DNA of 64,000 bases from Sphingobacteriales bacterium (GTDB taxonomy: Bacteria > Bacteroidota > Bacteroidia > Sphingobacteriales > Sphingobacteriaceae). The stretch covers positions 1 through 64,000 of the forward strand of contig RDYW01000038.1 of the NCBI GenBank assembly GCA_004293485.1. The letters are read 5' to 3'. Positions 4,306 through 28,611 of the stretch are shown one piece after another. The notes below the pieces were generated by a model. The model was not told the origin of the DNA. It searched no databases and was given only the letters and a program-made list of their open reading frames with translations. Each line of letters begins with the position of its first letter. Within the stretch, counting starts at the first letter, position 1. The translations under genes were made by a program, and so were the position numbers.

Positions 4306-4512
4306 TTAATGTTATTTTAATGATTTAACTTTTTTGGTTTGTAGCACAATAAATAAAATTTTAGATTTTAACAATCTAGTCTTCTTCACCCCGCTTTGTG
4401 TTCTTTGCGCCTTCACTTTGTGTTCTTTGCGGTTAAAATTTTACCGCAAAGTTTGCAAAGGTTTACGCAAAGAGCGCAAAGCCTTTATTTTTTATACTCC
4501 CCTAAAGTAAAG

Positions 4513-4570
4513 CTTTGCTTTAGAGCGAAAACTTCCTAATTTTTCACTCTTCACTACGTTCTGTCACTCT
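4513..4570 (+). repeat. 58-bp direct repeat, left copy
   Basis: It starts CTTTGCTTTAGAGCG and ends TTCTGTCACTCT. It matches 5486-5543 in the same orientation at 57 of 58 positions. The two copies bracket the transposase gene and its REP-like units. Confidence 0.9.
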
Positions 4571-4679: not shown

Positions 4680-5243
4680 TTACCCAAACCTATCTTTAAA
4701 ATGTGTTAAAAAATCAAAAGTATCAGTTTGTGTTTGATAAAAACTTGCCGACGACCATTTATAATCTTCGGGTGTTATAGCTAAGTTCCAATGCGCTTGT
4801 AGCGGATTGTTGTGCAAATAATTTAGTTTTTGTATTAAAACATCTATATTAAACATTTTAACGGCAAGAGCGTCTCTTTTCCAAATTCTATGTTTTCTTT
4901 CTGTTTCTTTAACTTCAAAATAAGGTAACACTTTTTGATGGTTTGTTTTTAAATCAATTAAAATAAGATGTGCGGTTTTTTTATTAAAACTTGAACTTGG
5001 TTTTTCTTTACCGTTGGGCTTTAATAACTCCCAAATTAGGTGAATATGGTTCGGCATAATTACAAAACCATACACCGCAATAAGTTTTTTATCTACTAAT
5101 TCTTTAAGCGTATTAACGATAATTAATTTGTATTCATCTTTTTTTAGAAGTTTTTTCCAATCTTTAATAGTTGATGTCCAAAAATATACTTCATTATATT
5201 CTAAGTAAGAATTTCTAAATTTTTTAAATAGTTCATTAATCAT
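4680..5243 (-). CDS. REP-associated tyrosine transposase (RAYT, IS200-like Y1 family)
   Basis: A 187-aa HUH single-strand nuclease. The metal-binding HUH motif is in MPNHIHLI (H66, H68), and the catalytic Tyr is Y142 in the RAYT signature NYLHNNPLQAHW. The Y-K-W-S-S motif near the C-terminus is also typical of RAYTs. These enzymes cut palindromic REP elements at hairpins as single strands and are mostly immobile, single-copy genes. Here REP-like hairpin units flank the gene in inverted orientation, which fits that role. The module sits inside the gab locus and is bounded by 58-bp direct repeats. The length is normal and the motifs are intact, so it may be active. Confidence 0.88.
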   Translation of the reverse strand: MINELFKKFRNSYLEYNEVYFWTSTIKDWKKLLKKDEYKLIIVNTLKELVDKKLIAVYGFVIMPNHIHLIWELLKPNGKEKPSSSFNKKTAHLILIDLKTNHQKVLPYFEVKETERKHRIWKRDALAVKMFNIDVLIQKLNYLHNNPLQAHWNLAITPEDYKWSSASFYQTQTDTFDFLTHFKDRFG

Positions 5244-5464: not shown

Positions 5465-5485
5465 TTCTCCGTTTATAAAGGAATT

Positions 5486-5543
5486 CTTTGCTTTAGAGCG
5501 AAAACTTCCTGATTTTTCACTCTTCACTACGTTCTGTCACTCT
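5486..5543 (+). repeat. 58-bp direct repeat, right copy
   Basis: It is identical to 4513-4570 except for one base (G for A after TTCCT). Its distal part doubles as one arm of the inverted repeat at 5519-5559. Confidence 0.9.
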
Positions 5544-20830: not shown

Positions 20831-23788
20831 ATGCAAGGTAAAGGAATAATAAAATTTGCCGCAATTGTGATTGCAATTGTGTGTTTATACTCGCTGTCGT
20901 TCACTTATGTGGCCAATAAAGTAGAAAAAGATGCCAAAGAATACGCCAAAGGCAATATTGATGTAGAACGAGCATACCTCGACTCGATAAGTACAAAACC
21001 AGTTTATCCTTTGTTCGACCATACTTACCAGTATGTAAAAGAACGTGAAATACCACTAGGGCTTGATTTAAAAGGCGGTATGAACGTTACCATGGAAATA
21101 GAACTGGTACAACTTGTAAAAAGCCTAGCCAACAACCCTAGCGACCAAAATTTTAACACCGCTTTAGCCAATGCACAAGCAGACTTGGCCAATTCGCAAG
21201 AAGGTTTTATCAAGTTGTTTGTTAAAGAATACGAAAAAGTGGTTCCAAGTGGTAAATTGGCTACATTTTTTGCAACCAAAGAAAACGCTACCGAAATAAA
21301 ACTAAATGCTTCAAATGCTGATATACTAGTGTTTTTAGAAAAACAAGGTAAATCGGCAGTGGATAGGTCGTTCAACATATTAAGAACCCGTATTGATAAA
21401 TTTGGCGTAACCCAGCCCAATATACAATTACAAGAAGGTAGCAACCGTATTTTGGTTGAATTGCCTGGCGTAACCGATAAGCAGCGTGTGCGTAGGTTAT
21501 TACAAGGTTCGGCTAAGTTAGAGTTTTACGAGGCACATGATAACGTTGAGATTTTTCCTTTGCTACAAAATATAAACAATATACTAGCCGCCAAAATCCC
21601 GAAAGCAGAAACAAAAAAAGAAACAACCACGCTAGCCAAAGATACATCAGCATCAAAAGATAAACCAGCATTGCTAAGTGCCAAAAAAGGTAGTACGACA
21701 AGCGATTCGGTAAAAAATAATGAGGCTTTAGTAAAATCAAACCCATTATTTGCTGTATTAGCACCAGCTTCACAATCAGGTAAAGATGGGCAACAAAGCC
21801 TAAGCCCCGGCCCAGTAGTAGGATATGCAGCGCAAAAAGATACAGCAAAAATAAATGCAATGCTAAGTTCTGCCGATATTAAAGCTGTTATACCATCAAA
21901 CGTAAAATTACTATGGGGTATAAAAGCAGTTTCGCCCGAAACTAAAACTTTTCAATTATATGCTATAAAACCTACGGGCTTAAATGGCGAACCAGCCTTA
22001 GAGGGCGATGTAATTTCGAACGCCCGCGAGGATATAGACCAACGAGGCAACCCCGAGGTAACTATGACCATGAATAGCACTGGGGCGCAAGAATGGAAAC
22101 GCATTACCGCCGCCGCCGCAGGTAGCCCACAAAGCGAAGATGATAATAAATGTATTGCCATAGTTTTAGATAATTCGGTGTATACCGCCCCACGTGTATC
22201 GGGCGAAATACCTAATGGTGTATCCTCAATATCAGGAAGTTTTACTATTGATGAAACCAAAGATTTGGCCAATGTACTAAAAGCGGGTAAACTACCTGCA
22301 CCAGCCAAAATAGTTGAAGAAGCCATTGTAGGTCCATCATTAGGTGCCGAAGCCATTACATCAGGCTTACTATCGGCCTTGGTAGGTTTAATAGTGGTAT
22401 TAATATTTATGATGTTTTACTATAACCGAGCAGGTACAGTAGCCAACGTAGCCGTTTTTGCAAATATATTTTTCTTAATGGGCGTACTCGCATCCTTTAC
22501 TGCGGTATTAACTTTGCCAGGTATTGCAGGTATAGTACTTACAATGGGTATGGCGGTGGATGCTAACGTATTAATTTACGAACGTATTAGGGAAGAACTA
22601 GGTTTAGGGAAATCGTTAAAACAAGCCATTGCCGATGGGTATAAACACGCCATGCCATCAATTTTAGATGGGCAAATAACCACTTTTATTACAGGAGTAA
22701 TTTTATATGTATTTGGCTCGGGGCCGATTTCTGGTTTTGCCATCACTTTAATGATTGGTATTGTAACTTCGTTATTTACCGCCATATTTATATCAAGGTT
22801 GGTATTTGAGTGGATGTTGAGCAAAGACATGAAAATTAAGTTTTCAAATCCTTGGAGTTCGCATACGTTTAAAAATGCCAATTATGGCTTTGTTAAAAAC
22901 CGTAAATTCTTTTACTTGTTTTCGGGCACATTTATCACCTTGGGTATTATATCTATTATTTTACGTGGTTTTAGCTATGGTGTTGATTTTAAAGGAGGCC
23001 GCTCGTATGTAGTACGTTTCGAAAAAAGTGTAACCACCGATAAGGTACGTGATGTGTTAAACGAAACTTTTGGGGGTACCACCGAAGTAAAAACCTTTGG
23101 TAGCGATGATCAAGTACGTGTAACCACATCCTACAAAATTGATGATACCGCCAACAATGCCGACCAATTGGTAGAAAACAAACTAAACGAAGGCCTAAGT
23201 AAAATAACAAGCAACAAAGCCAAAATAATGAGTTCGCAAAAAGTGGGGCCTACGGTAGCCAACGATGTGCGTATATCGGCAGTGTACTCGGTTATACTTT
23301 GTATTTTTGCTATTGCTATTTACATTTTTATACGCTTTAAAAAATGGAGTTATAGCGTGGGGGCATTGGTAGCCGTAACCCACGATGTGCTTTTGGTGCT
23401 TTCGTTCTTCTCGTTATTCAACGGAATTTTACCTTTCTCGTTAGATATAGACCAAGCATTTATAGCCGCTATATTAACCGTAATAGGTTATTCGATAAAT
23501 GATACCGTGGTAGTATTTGATAGGATTAGAGAGTTTTTAAATAACCACCACGCCAAAACCGATGATATGAAAGTGGTAATTAATGATGCTATAAACAATA
23601 CCCTTAGCCGTACTGTAATTACCGCTTTAACGGTAATATTTGTATTGGTAGTATTATTCGTATTTGGTGGCGAGGTTATTAGAGGTTTCTCTTTCGCACT
23701 ATTAATAGGCGTAATATTTGGTACTTACTCCTCTATTTGTGTAGCTACACCAGTAGTGGTTGATTTAGGTAAAAACGCTAAAATGTAG
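20831..23788 (+). CDS. secDF: Fused protein translocase subunit SecDF
   Basis: A 985-aa inner-membrane protein in which SecD and SecF are one chain, as is usual in Bacteroidota. It uses the proton gradient to help pull preproteins through SecYEG. The N-terminal TM is followed by the P1 motif EIPLGLDLKGGMNVTME and LRTRIDKFGVTQPNIQ, then an Ala/Lys/Ser/Thr-rich insertion (about 255-320). The SecD TM block contains MGMAVDANVLIYERIREEL. The SecF half starts near 685 with GVDFKGGRSYVVRF and holds GYSINDTVVVFDRIREFL. The last codon, the stop and the terminator are duplicated 997 bp downstream. Confidence 0.96.
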   Translation: MQGKGIIKFAAIVIAIVCLYSLSFTYVANKVEKDAKEYAKGNIDVERAYLDSISTKPVYPLFDHTYQYVKEREIPLGLDLKGGMNVTMEIELVQLVKSLANNPSDQNFNTALANAQADLANSQEGFIKLFVKEYEKVVPSGKLATFFATKENATEIKLNASNADILVFLEKQGKSAVDRSFNILRTRIDKFGVTQPNIQLQEGSNRILVELPGVTDKQRVRRLLQGSAKLEFYEAHDNVEIFPLLQNINNILAAKIPKAETKKETTTLAKDTSASKDKPALLSAKKGSTTSDSVKNNEALVKSNPLFAVLAPASQSGKDGQQSLSPGPVVGYAAQKDTAKINAMLSSADIKAVIPSNVKLLWGIKAVSPETKTFQLYAIKPTGLNGEPALEGDVISNAREDIDQRGNPEVTMTMNSTGAQEWKRITAAAAGSPQSEDDNKCIAIVLDNSVYTAPRVSGEIPNGVSSISGSFTIDETKDLANVLKAGKLPAPAKIVEEAIVGPSLGAEAITSGLLSALVGLIVVLIFMMFYYNRAGTVANVAVFANIFFLMGVLASFTAVLTLPGIAGIVLTMGMAVDANVLIYERIREELGLGKSLKQAIADGYKHAMPSILDGQITTFITGVILYVFGSGPISGFAITLMIGIVTSLFTAIFISRLVFEWMLSKDMKIKFSNPWSSHTFKNANYGFVKNRKFFYLFSGTFITLGIISIILRGFSYGVDFKGGRSYVVRFEKSVTTDKVRDVLNETFGGTTEVKTFGSDDQVRVTTSYKIDDTANNADQLVENKLNEGLSKITSNKAKIMSSQKVGPTVANDVRISAVYSVILCIFAIAIYIFIRFKKWSYSVGALVAVTHDVLLVLSFFSLFNGILPFSLDIDQAFIAAILTVIGYSINDTVVVFDRIREFLNNHHAKTDDMKVVINDAINNTLSRTVITALTVIFVLVVLFVFGGEVIRGFSFALLIGVIFGTYSSICVATPVVVDLGKNAKM

Positions 23789-23876
23789 CATTTAAACATT
23801 TAGTTGAGATATTTAAAAATTATTTTAAATCCTCATATTTTATAAAAGCCATAGCATTAAATGTTGTGGCTTTTTT
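23780..23876 (+). repeat. 97-bp direct repeat, left copy (secDF 3' end and terminator)
   Basis: It begins with the last secDF codons and stop (AAAATGTAG) and runs through the terminator to its T run. It is identical, base for base, to 24777-24873. The two copies bracket the PIN toxin-antitoxin pair. Confidence 0.95.
23843..23876 (+). terminator. Rho-independent terminator of secDF
   Basis: AAAAGCCA pairs with TGGCTTTT, with a loose inner stem (CAT against ATG), followed by a T run. It lies 55 bp after the secDF stop codon. A second identical copy is at 24840-24873. Confidence 0.8.
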
Positions 23877-24062
23877 ATATTTATAGAATTAATAGGTAAT
23901 TTTTGGAGATAGTACATAAGGTGTTTATTAACCAAGAATTGATGAAGATTTAATGTTATTGGCGTTAAACCTATTCAAAATAAACTTTGCATACTGGAGC
24001 TTTAAGTGATGTTTTTTATCTGTATATGTTCTATTTTAAAATCGTTTTAAATTCTAAAGCAG

Positions 24063-24431
24063 TTAATATGCTTTAGGGTGCATTGTTCTTTTTAGGATAT
24101 TAAAATGTTTATCATCGGTTACAATGTATGTTGCATTACCAGCAAAAGCACAATCAATAAATTTATTATCATCAGGATCTAATGGTATTAAATTAAGTTT
24201 ATAACTGGGTGATATTTTAATAACATTAGGCAACAATAACAAAAAATCTAAAAAACTTTTAGCCACCAAAACACTATAAAACTGGGTAATTATTTCTTCA
24301 TATTCAAGTAAGATATCGCTACTTATTAGCAAGTCAAATTCATTGGAAAACAGTTTATCAATTATAACAGCAAGTTTCGATTGAGAAGATATAGCCCTTA
24401 AAACAACGTTGGTATCTAAAACAACTAGCAT
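24063..24431 (-). CDS. PIN-domain toxin (putative toxin-antitoxin system ribonuclease)
   Basis: A 122-aa PIN-domain protein of the 'putative toxin-antitoxin system toxin component, PIN family' type, expected to be a Mg2+-dependent RNase. The acidic active-site residues are in place: D6 (VVLDTNVVLRA), E43/E45-E46 (ILLEYEEII), D93 (DPDDNKFIDCAF) and D106/D107 (YIVTDDKHF). It lies 3 bp after the small gene upstream and is probably translated from the same mRNA. The pair sits between identical copies of the secDF terminator, so it looks inserted. Confidence 0.85.
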   Translation of the reverse strand: MLVVLDTNVVLRAISSQSKLAVIIDKLFSNEFDLLISSDILLEYEEIITQFYSVLVAKSFLDFLLLLPNVIKISPSYKLNLIPLDPDDNKFIDCAFAGNATYIVTDDKHFNILKRTMHPKAY

Positions 24432-24434
24432 TAT

Positions 24435-24632
24435 TTAATCTGCTTTGCTTAATAATTCATCTGTAAAATTTTTTTCGAACCAAATCTTGTCGGCTTTAGC
24501 CCTCATTTTTAATAAAAAAAAACGAGCCATATTGTTTTTAAGTTCTACAAGAACATCATCAGGTACGTTGGTATCGTAAATTTTCAATAACTCTTTTTGA
24601 ATGTTTGAATATGATTCTTTCTTTGTTAACAT
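24435..24632 (-). CDS. Probable antitoxin partner of the PIN toxin
   Basis: A 65-aa mostly helical, charged protein (MLTKKESYSNIQKELLKIYD, ending TDELLSKAD). It lies directly upstream of the PIN toxin gene and on the same strand, which is the usual antitoxin position. The segment VPDDVLVELKNNMARFFLLKM could be the toxin-wrapping helix. No known antitoxin family is certain from sequence alone. Confidence 0.7.
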   Translation of the reverse strand: MLTKKESYSNIQKELLKIYDTNVPDDVLVELKNNMARFFLLKMRAKADKIWFEKNFTDELLSKAD

Positions 24633-24956
24633 TTTAGTTGATTTAAAATCGTTATTTCAAATATACAAAATGCCACAATATTTTTTTTAAAATAAAAAAC
24701 ATAAAAGGATATTCACCAAATGCTATCAAGAATTTTAAGTTTATATTTTCTACATCTTCTGAAAAAAGTAATAGCAAAAATGTAGCATTTAAACATTTAG
24801 TTGAGATATTTAAAAATTATTTTAAATCCTCATATTTTATAAAAGCCATAGCATTAAATGTTGTGGCTTTTTTTATGATTAACAAATTAGCAAAATATAA
24901 TAATCGAAAAAATATAATATATTTACAATCTTTATTTACCCTAATAAATACATTCG
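24633..24956. other. Intergenic region after the TA module, including the second 97-bp repeat
   Basis: The left part is AT-rich with no feature apart from TTTAAAATCGTT (24642-24653), which also occurs at 24035-24046 on the other side of the TA pair. The middle is the right copy of the 97-bp repeat. The rest is the AT-rich leader of the coiled-coil gene. Confidence 0.6.
24777..24873 (+). repeat. 97-bp direct repeat, right copy
   Basis: It is identical to 23780-23876 and includes a second terminator hairpin (24840-24873). There is no secDF coding sequence ahead of it, only the last two codons and the stop triplet. Confidence 0.95.
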
Positions 24957-25289
24957 ATGGAGCAATCACTATTGGTACTGTTGGCCGAAATGTTAAAAAA
25001 ACAAGAGCAGCATTCAGAGATATTGAAAAATCACAGCGAAATATTAAAAAAACATAGCCAAATTATGACCACCCTTGTACATGAGGTTAAAGACCAGTCA
25101 TTGAGTATGGTTAATTTTTTTGATAACCAAAAGCAGTTTAACACCTCATTAATTACCGAATTAAAGGAAATCAAAGGTTTTCTTTCCAGCTTAACTGATT
25201 TGAATGATAGGATGAAAATTTTGGAACAAAAGGAAAATAAATTTGAACAACGATTAAGTAAATTAGAAAATTTGCTAAATGCTTCCTAA
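24957..25289 (+). CDS. Small coiled-coil protein, unknown function
   Basis: A 110-aa protein made almost entirely of heptad-like helices. Two near-identical units, HSEILKNHSEILKKHSQIM, lie near the N-terminus, and a second coil (MKILEQKENKFEQRLSKLEN) lies near the C-terminus. There is no signal peptide or membrane segment. I recognise no family; it may oligomerise. It follows the duplicated secDF terminator and converges with icd. Confidence 0.6.
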   Translation: MEQSLLVLLAEMLKKQEQHSEILKNHSEILKKHSQIMTTLVHEVKDQSLSMVNFFDNQKQFNTSLITELKEIKGFLSSLTDLNDRMKILEQKENKFEQRLSKLENLLNAS

Positions 25290-25296
25290 AACAATT

Positions 25297-25325
25297 AAAG
25301 CCACAATTAGTACAATTGCAGCTTT
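25297..25325. terminator. Possible bidirectional terminator between convergent genes
   Basis: AAAGC pairs with GCTTT and CAATT with AATTG, separated by a 2x2 internal loop and a 5-nt loop. An A-rich stretch lies on one side and T-rich stretches further on. It lies between the ends of two convergent genes. Confidence 0.4.
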
Positions 25326-25351
25326 AAAAATTTATAAAATCCTTTATTTTT

Positions 25352-26575
25352 TTATCCTAATTTCGCTTTTAAATTTTCGTCAATAGCGTTCAAAAAATCT
25401 TGTGTATTAAGGTATTGCTCGGTAGTGGGTTTATTACCGTGGATACATACGGCTAAATCTTTGGTCATTTTGCCACTCTCTACGGTTTCTATACACACTT
25501 TTTCTAATGTATGGCAAAAATCTATAAGTTCTTGGTTTTCATCTAGTTTTCCTCTAAACTCTAAGCCTCTGGTCCAGGCAAAAATGGAGGCAATGGGGTT
25601 AGTTGAGGTGGGTTTACCGTTTTGATGGTCGCGGTAGTGGCGTGTAACCGTACCATGTGCGGCTTCGGCTTCCATAGTTTTGCCATCGGGGCTTATTAAA
25701 ACCGAAGTCATCAAACCTAATGAACCAAAACCTTGTGCTACGGTATCCGATTGTACATCGCCATCGTAATTTTTACATGCCCATACAAAGTTACCGTTCC
25801 ATTTTAGGGCCGAAGCTACCATATCGTCAATAAGGCGGTGTTCGTACGTTATACCAGCATCTGCGAAAGCGGTTTTAAATTCGTCTTGGTATATGGTTTC
25901 AAAAATATCTTTAAACCTGCCATCGTATTTTTTAAGGATGGTGTTTTTGGTAGATAAGTATAAAGGCCATTTTTTGCTTAGGGCTTGGTTAAAGCAGGCT
26001 CGGGCAAAGCCCATAATACTATCATCGGTATTGTACATGGCCATGGCTACACCGTCGCCTTTAAAGTTGTGTACTTCAAATTCTTGCAATGTGCCATCTT
26101 CGCCTTCAAATTTTATGGTAAGCTTTCCTTTGCCTTTGGTTACAAAATCGGTGGCCCGGTATTGATCGCCAAAAGCATGACGGCCAATGCAGATAGGGGC
26201 TGTCCAGTTGGGTACTAAGCGGGGCACATTGGCCATTACTATAGGTTCTCTAAAAACGGTACCATCTAATATATTACGGATTGTGCCATTGGGCGAACGC
26301 CACATTTGCTTTAAGCTAAATTCTTTAACACGGGCCTCATCGGGGGTAATGGTGGCACATTTTATACCTACGCCGTATTGTTTAATGGCATTGGCGGCAT
26401 CTATGGTTACTTGGTCGTCGGTTTCGTCTCTAAACTCGATACCTAAATCGTAGTATTTTATATCTAAATCTACATAAGGAAATATTAATTTATCTTTTAT
26501 AAATTTCCAAATTATACGGGTCATTTCATCGCCATCTAACTCCACAATAGGATTAATAACTTTTATTTTCTGCAT
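25352..26575 (-). CDS. icd: NADP-dependent isocitrate dehydrogenase
   Basis: A 407-aa enzyme of the homodimeric, eukaryote-like NADP-IDH subfamily; it converts isocitrate to 2-oxoglutarate and CO2 in the TCA cycle. Diagnostic segments are [20 protein letters not shown], the substrate-binding [21 protein letters not shown] region, the metal-binding [13 protein letters not shown] and [20 protein letters not shown], and the NADP-binding [12 protein letters not shown]. The length is standard. It supplies the 2-oxoglutarate used by the two aminotransferases elsewhere in the window. It is a single-gene unit between the coiled-coil gene and dnaX. Confidence 0.96.
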
Positions 26576-26811
26576 TTTTTATTTATTGTTAATTTTTTTG
26601 AGGTCGTAAATATAAACTTTTGAATTAAAACACCACATATACATTTCTTTTATTTAATCCTTTTTTTTGGTTTAAAAATGCTTTGTACTTTACTTAAAAT
26701 TTTTCGTGTTTGCACAAGAGTAATTTATATTAATGGGTAGTTTTTTGTTTACTGGTTATTTTTATCTTAAATGCATTTAAAATATAACCAGTAAAACGTT
26801 AAAAAAAATAT

Positions 26812-28611
26812 TTAATCAAAAGTTAAAGAAAACATATTTTTTAAATCGTTAATAGCTGGGTTTTTTTCTACAAAATAATTGTATTTATCTTTAGATGTAT
26901 AAGGCTTTTTGCTGGTATTGGTGCTATTAATTATCGAAGTTACGTTTATACTAAAATTTTTAAGTTGGTTGCGTAAATAGTTTACTAAATCAATTTTTTC
27001 GGCTTTTAACTCGTTTTCTTGTAGGGTATTATTTATTAAAACTTGAATTTCGAAATTGGGTAGTAAAATTGGGTAATTGCTTTCCATTAATGCAGCCAAA
27101 CTCATTTTATTTTTTTGTTTCATTAAAGCTATATAAGCTTTCCAAGTGGTTAATAAATCGCTTTCGTCGAATTCATTATTTTGGTTACCAGTTAAATATT
27201 GGGGTTCGTTAGTTTTAGTTACGAAATTGCTATTTTTAAAATTGTTTAAATCGGGTATTAGTGAATTGGCAGGTAAAGCCACTTTTTTCAACAAGCTAGC
27301 CGAAGGTTCGATAGCTTGGTTAGTAGTTTTTTTTTGACTTTTGTAAGCCAGTGCAATAGGGTTATGCTCTTTTATTTCATTGGTTAACTTAGTAGCTTCA
27401 TATGTAGTATTGGCGGGTTCGATGTGCGTATGTGAAAGAGCTGGTATTAAATTTTCAGGTTTTTTTTTTACTTGCTCTGCTAGTTGCACAACATTGGGGT
27501 TATTGCTTAGGTTTAAAGCACTAGGCAGGTGGCTTAGTTTTATAAGCATTAGCTCTATTTGCAAGCGTTGGTTTTTGCTTTGTTTTAAGTTGATTTCACA
27601 TTGATTACCAATATTTAAACCACTAATTAAAAACGAAATAGAGGCTTTGTGGGCTTGCTCTTGGTAACGTTGTTTTATGTTTTCGCTTACTTCTAGCAAT
27701 TGTATGGTGGCGGTATCTTTACATACCAATAAGTTTCTAAAATGCTCACACAAGCCACTTGTAAATGTATTTCCTTCGAAGCCATGGTTTAATATTTCGT
27801 CAAATAACAACAATGCCGAAGCTAAATTTGCATCTAAAAGGGCGGTAGTAACTTTAAAAAAATAATCGTAATCGAGTAGGTTTAGGTTATTAATAACAGC
27901 TTGGTAAGTAACCTCTCGGTTCGAAAAACTTACAATTTGGTCGAACATCGAAAGTGCATCACGCAGGCCACCATCGGCTTTTTGGGCAATTAAGTGCAAA
28001 CCATCGGCATCAAAGTTAATGTTTTCAGTAGAGGCAATACTTTGTAAATGATTGGCCATATCATCTACTTTAATTCGGTTAAAATCAAATATTTGACACC
28101 TTGAAAGTATGGTAGGCAATATTTTATGTTTTTCGGTAGTAGCCAATATAAAAATAGCGTATGAAGGGGGTTCTTCTAAAGTTTTTAAAAAAGCATTAAA
28201 AGCACTCTGCGAAAGCATGTGTACCTCGTCAATAATATATACCTTATATTTTCCACCTTGAGGCGGTATACGCACTTGGTCGGTTAAATTTCTTATATCA
28301 TCTACCGAATTATTGGAAGCTGCATCTAACTCATGAAAATTAAAAGAGTTACCATGTTGAATAGATGCGCATGATTCGCACACACCGCATGCTTCATGGT
28401 GTGTGGTAATTTGAGTGCAATTTATAGTTTTTGCTAGTATTCGGGCGCAAGTAGTTTTGCCCACTCCCCTTGGCCCACAAAATAAAAATGCTTGCGCTAG
28501 CTGATTATTTTTAATGGCATTTTTTAGCGTATTGGTAATATGTAATTGGCCTACAACACTATCAAAGGTTATAGGGCGGTACTTACGGGCCGAAACAATA
28601 AAATTATCCAT
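26812..28611 (-). CDS. dnaX: DNA polymerase III subunit gamma/tau
   Basis: A 599-aa clamp-loader ATPase. Walker A is GPRGVGKT (46-53), the zinc site uses C65, C75, C78 and C81, Walker B is YIIDEVHML and sensor 1 is FILATTEKHKILPTILSRC. After the clamp-loader core (about 1-370) comes a low-complexity linker and a C-terminal tau-type region. At the core-linker junction codons 381-384 contain an A10 run (27460-27469). One extra A gives Lys-Thr-stop at once and one fewer A gives a stop within five codons. Slippage would therefore yield a gamma form of about 385 aa, as described for dnaX of other bacteria. Confidence 0.96.
   Translation of the reverse strand: MDNFIVSARKYRPITFDSVVGQLHITNTLKNAIKNNQLAQAFLFCGPRGVGKTTCARILAKTINCTQITTHHEACGVCESCASIQHGNSFNFHELDAASNNSVDDIRNLTDQVRIPPQGGKYKVYIIDEVHMLSQSAFNAFLKTLEEPPSYAIFILATTEKHKILPTILSRCQIFDFNRIKVDDMANHLQSIASTENINFDADGLHLIAQKADGGLRDALSMFDQIVSFSNREVTYQAVINNLNLLDYDYFFKVTTALLDANLASALLLFDEILNHGFEGNTFTSGLCEHFRNLLVCKDTATIQLLEVSENIKQRYQEQAHKASISFLISGLNIGNQCEINLKQSKNQRLQIELMLIKLSHLPSALNLSNNPNVVQLAEQVKKKPENLIPALSHTHIEPANTTYEATKLTNEIKEHNPIALAYKSQKKTTNQAIEPSASLLKKVALPANSLIPDLNNFKNSNFVTKTNEPQYLTGNQNNEFDESDLLTTWKAYIALMKQKNKMSLAALMESNYPILLPNFEIQVLINNTLQENELKAEKIDLVNYLRNQLKNFSINVTSIINSTNTSKKPYTSKDKYNYFVEKNPAINDLKNMFSLTFD

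Follow-up and report, generated by a model that had tools for sequence, protein, structure and literature searches.

How did a toxin-antitoxin gene pair come to lie between two identical copies of the 3′ end of its neighbour? The question is raised by a 64,000-base stretch of contig RDYW01000038.1 from a Sphingobacteriales bacterium (assembly GCA_004293485.1), here called the window, in which secDF is followed by a 97-base direct repeat enclosing a PIN toxin gene and its putative antitoxin. To our knowledge, it is an open question by what route small chromosomal toxin-antitoxin pairs, lacking both transposase and integrase, pass from one genome to another. For the pair at secDF, we consider it somewhat probable that it entered by insertion with a long target duplication, without a transposase or integrase of its own.

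The two copies of the repeat are identical at 97 of 97 positions, exactly as the original prediction on this DNA had it, and with one mismatch they grow to 100 bases (23777-23876 and 24774-24873). They form the sole exact direct repeat of at least 40 bases in the window, and when the 1.1 kb concerned was shuffled 400 times with its dinucleotides preserved, the longest exact repeat measured 9-17 bases. Each copy contains, as had also been claimed, the final 9 bases of secDF, made up of two sense codons and the stop codon, together with a predicted terminator; a terminator-like hairpin was seen by eye at the corresponding place after secDF in two near relatives, G013 and G012. Rather than at many unrelated loci, the outcome named in advance as damaging to the idea, the 97 bases were found only twice in the organism's own genome (2,211,952 bases in 89 contigs), both times at the secDF locus, and that search gave no third copy. 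A dispersed or phage-borne repeat was rejected on the grounds that the genome search gave no further copy and that a 45-base part has no exact match in viral contigs. The 12-base direct repeat that had been pointed out close around the two genes does exist, but it carries no information: when the inner 724 bases were shuffled 400 times, 68 of the results contained an exact repeat of at least 12 bases, and at this chance level it was discarded as a candidate element end. The absence of an integrase was confirmed for the space between the copies, where no integrase-sized open reading frame (ORF) was found among those of at least 40 amino acids (aa), the rest of the genome not having been searched for one.

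The genes between the copies do look like a PIN toxin-antitoxin module. The PIN domain scores 71.3 bits against a curated cut-off of 27, and its residues D6, E43, D88 and D107 are invariant among 10 aligned members. Of 148 loci, window included, 126 have an ORF homologous to the putative antitoxin immediately upstream of the PIN gene, and 138 have any candidate ORF. Therefore, PIN and the 65-aa ORF are a conserved unit, and from their sequences they look like a type II toxin-antitoxin pair in antitoxin-toxin order. Known type II PIN modules (PF13470, TIGR00305) share with the pair the toxin family, the gene order and the conserved acidic residues, whereas here a duplicated host gene end brackets the pair and the antitoxin, widespread as its family is across those 126 loci, has no confident Pfam or NCBIfam match. 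Upstream of the antitoxin, TATATTTG fits the Bacteroidota -7 motif, TANNTTTG. A third hairpin with a T-rich tail, at 24051-24079, overlaps the PIN stop codon.

The gene secDF was present in 17 of the 18 genus genomes searched, own included. For the region 23700-28600, 40 of the 94-164 first-look candidates per genome were scored in four near relatives, G011, G012, G013 and G015. The first three matched at secDF, and none of these secDF matches passes window position 23795; G015 gave no secDF match among its scored candidates. The region from 25288 onwards was found on other contigs of these relatives, as were weak matches to the inside of the module, one in G013 (G013:C1) and one in G012 (G012:C93). 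The nearest relative, G011, is 98% identical over 2 kb of secDF, and its contig ends at window position 23730, before the repeat; at L047 1-31 (G011:C167) the contig stops about 50 bases short of the repeat, which may hint at strain variation there. A PIN match was found in five of 17 genus relatives, with at most 42% identity along its length, or 48% within a stretch of 48 residues.

As the repeat has only two genomic copies, the relatives' secDF matches stop by 23795, no close PIN gene was found in the 17 genus relatives and gene-end duplications occur around other modules, the pair at secDF looks inserted, and the locus is probably a real and recent insertion footprint. This upholds one half of what had been predicted, an insertion at the 3′ end of a gene; the other half, in which the displaced end is supplied as a copy by an element of the integrase type, found no support.

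Direct repeats were surveyed around PIN relatives, which occurred in 77 of 399 genomes of the family, own included. This family is probably Sphingobacteriaceae, as the PIN genes of three of its genomes (G278, G368 and G042) are identical to ones in Mucilaginibacter and Pedobacter records. The set of 152 loci comprised 29 others from the family search, 40 more listed matches, 80 from named genomes, L051, L052 and the window; 151 had a PIN match, 148 were left after removal of three duplicates, and 140 had enough flank. Bracketing repeats were scored ungapped (+1/-2) with a cut-off of at least 20. In a tight test that covered 700 bases to the left and 450 to the right of the gene, 15 of the 140 PIN loci were bracketed, window included, compared to 7 of 273 control ORFs, these being the other ORFs of 80-260 aa in the same loci (p 0.0008 by one-sided Fisher test, or 0.0016 when the window is left out). 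With wider flanks the counts were 21/140 and 12/206. Glyoxalase loci were never bracketed (0/50; PIN versus glyoxalase, p 0.008), and ParE loci were in 7 of 49 cases, one more having been skipped (ParE versus glyoxalase, p 0.006; both one-sided Fisher). Toxin-antitoxin modules beside duplicated terminators, which the original prediction advised looking for in other genomes, do recur, as do ones beside duplicated gene ends.

Among the seven control hits, four match toxin-antitoxin-type families themselves (Zeta, RelE below cut-off, Gp49 and nucleotidyltransferase); the remaining ones are a helix-turn-helix protein read as HigA-like, a lumazine-binding-like protein and one without a match. Direct repeats of 42-86 bases bracket the toxin-type controls RelE-like L117 (4476, 5349), Gp49-like L149 (2980, 3830) and Zeta L194 (111, 1236), in PIN-oriented coordinates. 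At L102, three copies of a similar 34-35-base stretch (2454, 3561 and 4781) divide a nucleotidyltransferase (HEPN-MNT-like) pair from the PIN pair, as if two modules had entered the same target in turn.

The repeats around PIN modules measure 27-202 bases, differ between loci and consist mostly of gene ends, terminators or promoters. The 3′ end of a neighbour is duplicated in the window, L076, L157 and L194, and the 5′ end in L073 and L120; L118 and L126 have terminator-like duplications, and L117, L138 and L093 promoter-like ones, as judged by eye. Copy identity falls from 100% (window, L118) to about 84% (L157, L075), a spread expected of insertions of differing age. The inserts are 664-1009 bases long and often extend barely beyond the two genes. 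Neither a common motif nor inverted ends were found by eye in 14 inserts, nor an attachment core common to the modules.

An empty site was found for locus L073 of genome G205, which lies in a single contig, by searching a sample of 79 genus genomes, own included. In G205 two copies of the repeat surround an insert of 1009 bases, which also holds a 75-aa ORF. At least 10 relatives (G409, G030, G104, G244, G374, G292, G403, G190, G328 and G184) have one copy and no module, with both flanks matching side by side and overlapping by 63-78 bases. Since the repeat is present once in these relatives, it is the target itself; together with the locus-specific repeats and the lack of a shared end motif, this speaks against an element that carries a copy of the displaced end, as had been proposed. 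After re-alignment of 14 G205-related loci, five showed the empty site, all of them among the at least 10; of the other nine, G400 has the module and three lack a clear junction. At L194, the match in all four other genus genomes stops 1-16 bases from where the left copy ends. Therefore, the left copy there is the native 3′ end of the gene; as an empty-site case the locus was set aside, as the search yielded only this nativeness. The ParE locus L233 was likewise dropped because its repeats are dispersed.

Similar duplications around other pairs suggest entry into chromosomes by copying of part of the landing site, without a transposase of their own. The likeliest course of such an insertion with long target duplication is that the pair, on a piece of linear DNA, would join a break whose long ends are staggered or re-replicated, and filling in of these ends on both sides would duplicate the target. 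The duplication would leave the host gene its own end, and addiction may then keep the pair, as cells losing it would be poisoned. By the marks of such insertions, the secDF case has locus-specific repeats of about 100 bp, with neither a transposase nor conserved ends. Judged on its sequence, it appears to work in the same way, a likeness that falls short of proof of membership.

Several observations weigh against this reading. An insert of this kind should be free of native target flank, and at secDF a stretch between the copies (23890-23967) aligns with the DNA that follows secDF and its terminator-like hairpin in G013. The alignment score of 56 was reached by none of 300 plain shuffles (maximum 45) and none of 1000 dinucleotide shuffles (maximum 38). 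The stretch is single copy in its own genome, and nothing like it was found in G012 or in the secDF flanks L007, L008, L009, L010, L012 and L013; it looks like native secDF flank. A plain insertion with a 97-base target therefore does not fit the window, and one must assume either that the duplication was at first longer and then lost part of its right side, or that the pair came by a different route, such as a homology-driven event. No empty secDF site was seen either: G011 breaks off before the repeat, and in G012 and G013 the contig with secDF is not the one that matches to the right of copy 2, so that none is readable in these three genomes. Nor is the G205 site simple, as G313, G232, G310, G149 and G358 carry different sequence at the insertion point, and in G313 a diverged match (62%) to the region of the 75-aa ORF was found, without a PIN alignment there; the history of that site therefore has more than one step. 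L237 was rejected as an empty-site case because ParE is present there in G019 and G059 too.

The survey has its own counterweights. Three PIN cases are weak, with repeats that look dispersed (L051), lie within a small gene (L100) or are short and in three copies (L127), and two ParE hits are a tandem array (L327) and a locus among dispersed repeats (L233). Without the weak PIN cases, the count is 12/140 versus 7/273 (p 0.007), and without the window as well 11/139 (p 0.014 versus control ORFs, p 0.03 versus glyoxalase); ParE without its two gives 5/49 (p 0.03 versus glyoxalase). No such repeat was present at 125 of the 140 PIN loci, nor at any of nine toxin-antitoxin loci of E. coli K-12 with 450-base flanks. 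The repeats may also mark mobility in general, glyoxalase genes being perhaps less mobile than toxin-antitoxin genes.

The native-like flank directly after copy 1 is what a Campbell-type or partial tandem event would leave. A circle or tandem copy with the secDF end, the native flank and the pair would have recombined by homology, so that both copies and the flank came from a secDF locus already holding the pair; a single crossover is generally known to leave direct repeats. Such a donor circle, however, would need to have closed near the secDF stop codon, the flank is not repeated after copy 2, and no donor locus was seen, with no close PIN relative in the 17 genus genomes. We regard this event as unlikely. 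Still less is to be said for the view that the pair belongs to an integrative element or cassette whose attachment sites lie at the 3′ end of secDF and whose integrase is encoded elsewhere. A duplicated gene 3′ end is the classical footprint of such elements, but no integrase-sized ORF lies between the copies, and related modules sit at unrelated targets, promoters and 5′ ends among them, with repeats of 27-202 bases that have no common ends by eye; we judge it improbable.

That the 97 bases were doubled when two sequences were joined, as an artefact of a draft genome in 89 contigs, has in its favour the contig break nearby in G011. However, 97 is not known as a usual k-mer length, and the same architecture occurs in other genomes, in G205 within one contig, which makes an artefact very unlikely. 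Repeats that are part of the element itself, being mobile sequence of a terminal or dispersed kind, seem to occur at the ParE locus L233 and, by eye, at the PIN locus L051. At secDF, by contrast, the repeat is a gene end with its terminator and has neither another genomic copy nor an exact viral-contig match of its 45-base part, and we give this explanation hardly any credence.

Nobusato et al. 2000 (Gene 259:99) and Furuta et al. 2010 are said to be the founding papers on insertion of restriction-modification genes with long target duplication. The insertions of the secDF type resemble them in being of an addictive gene pair without a transposase, between long, variable direct repeats of the target of the order of 100 bp. 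They differ in that a PIN toxin-antitoxin pair is inserted instead of a restriction system, in Bacteroidota and others, that the target is often a gene boundary, and that the empty site is known here from one toxin-antitoxin locus (G205) and not from secDF. From gene-3′-end integrative elements, which use tyrosine recombinases, the duplicated 3′ end and the intact host gene are familiar, whereas the lack of an integrase between the copies, the tiny size, the unrelated targets and the variable repeat length are not. Restriction-modification genes are described as inserting with long and variable target duplications (PMC3874152 section 7; PMC3031569 introduction and section 12), and the same pattern is reported for Helicobacter pylori (PMC1643837). 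In a passage of PMC2654758 that cites Nobusato, restriction systems are compared in their mobility with toxin-antitoxin systems, but target duplication is not stated there for toxin-antitoxin systems, nor is it in passages of PMC1891008 and PMC4158269. Across the portions of the open-access literature covered, insertion with target duplication was found stated for restriction-modification genes and not for toxin-antitoxin pairs.

If insertion with long target duplication is the correct reading, toxin-antitoxin pairs share a route hitherto described for restriction-modification genes, and every young insertion holds the record of its empty site, making rates, targets and ages measurable in existing genomes. 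More tentatively, and with rather less confidence, unrelated toxin-antitoxin families (PIN, RelE/ParE, Gp49, Zeta and HEPN-MNT) might spread as single units by such insertion at gene boundaries, without mobile-element genes, a duplicated promoter or terminator shielding the neighbours and addiction fixing the insert. The features of the secDF locus are collected in Table 1.

Table 1. Features at the secDF locus, in window coordinates.
Feature	Position	Strand	Support or remark
secDF, 3′ end duplicated	20831..23788	+	NF009585 SecDF, 1322.8 bits
Copy 1 of the 97-base repeat, native place: last secDF codons, stop, terminator	23780..23876	+	
Terminator in copy 1	23844..23874	+	predicted
Stretch like the secDF 3′ flank of G013, inside the supposed insert	23890..23967	+	local alignment score 56
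12-base repeat TTTAAAATCGTT, left	24035..24046	+	chance level
PIN toxin, PIN_3 family	24063..24431	-	PF13470 E 1.5e-19; TIGR00305 E 4.7e-14
Putative antitoxin, 65 aa, directly upstream of PIN	24435..24632	-	no confident Pfam or NCBIfam match
12-base repeat TTTAAAATCGTT, right	24642..24653	+	chance level
TATATTTG, upstream of antitoxin	24658..24665	-	fits TANNTTTG
Copy 2, the additional copy of the 97-base repeat	24777..24873	+	
Terminator in copy 2	24841..24871	+	predicted
110-aa ORF right of copy 2	24957..25289	+	no confident family; DNA not matched in any of the four near relatives

Some further searches gave minor results. A scan of 400 kb of G001 returned 69 repeat pairs scoring at least 25, in five places and mostly multi-copy; no clean bracket of a gene pair was among them, and the lone other two-copy pair encloses no complete ORF of 60 aa. 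Among plasmids, distant PIN relatives turned up in 48 records, none of them reaching 60% identity. Among the 29 control genes of E. coli K-12, rayT alone scored at least 14, its repeats being REP-like. The window itself holds a second bracketing repeat of 68 bases (4503-4570 and 5476-5543; score 56) around a 187-aa ORF on the minus strand (4680-5243), for which Pfam gave no match at 0.001 and which we take to be REP-associated tyrosine transposase-like.

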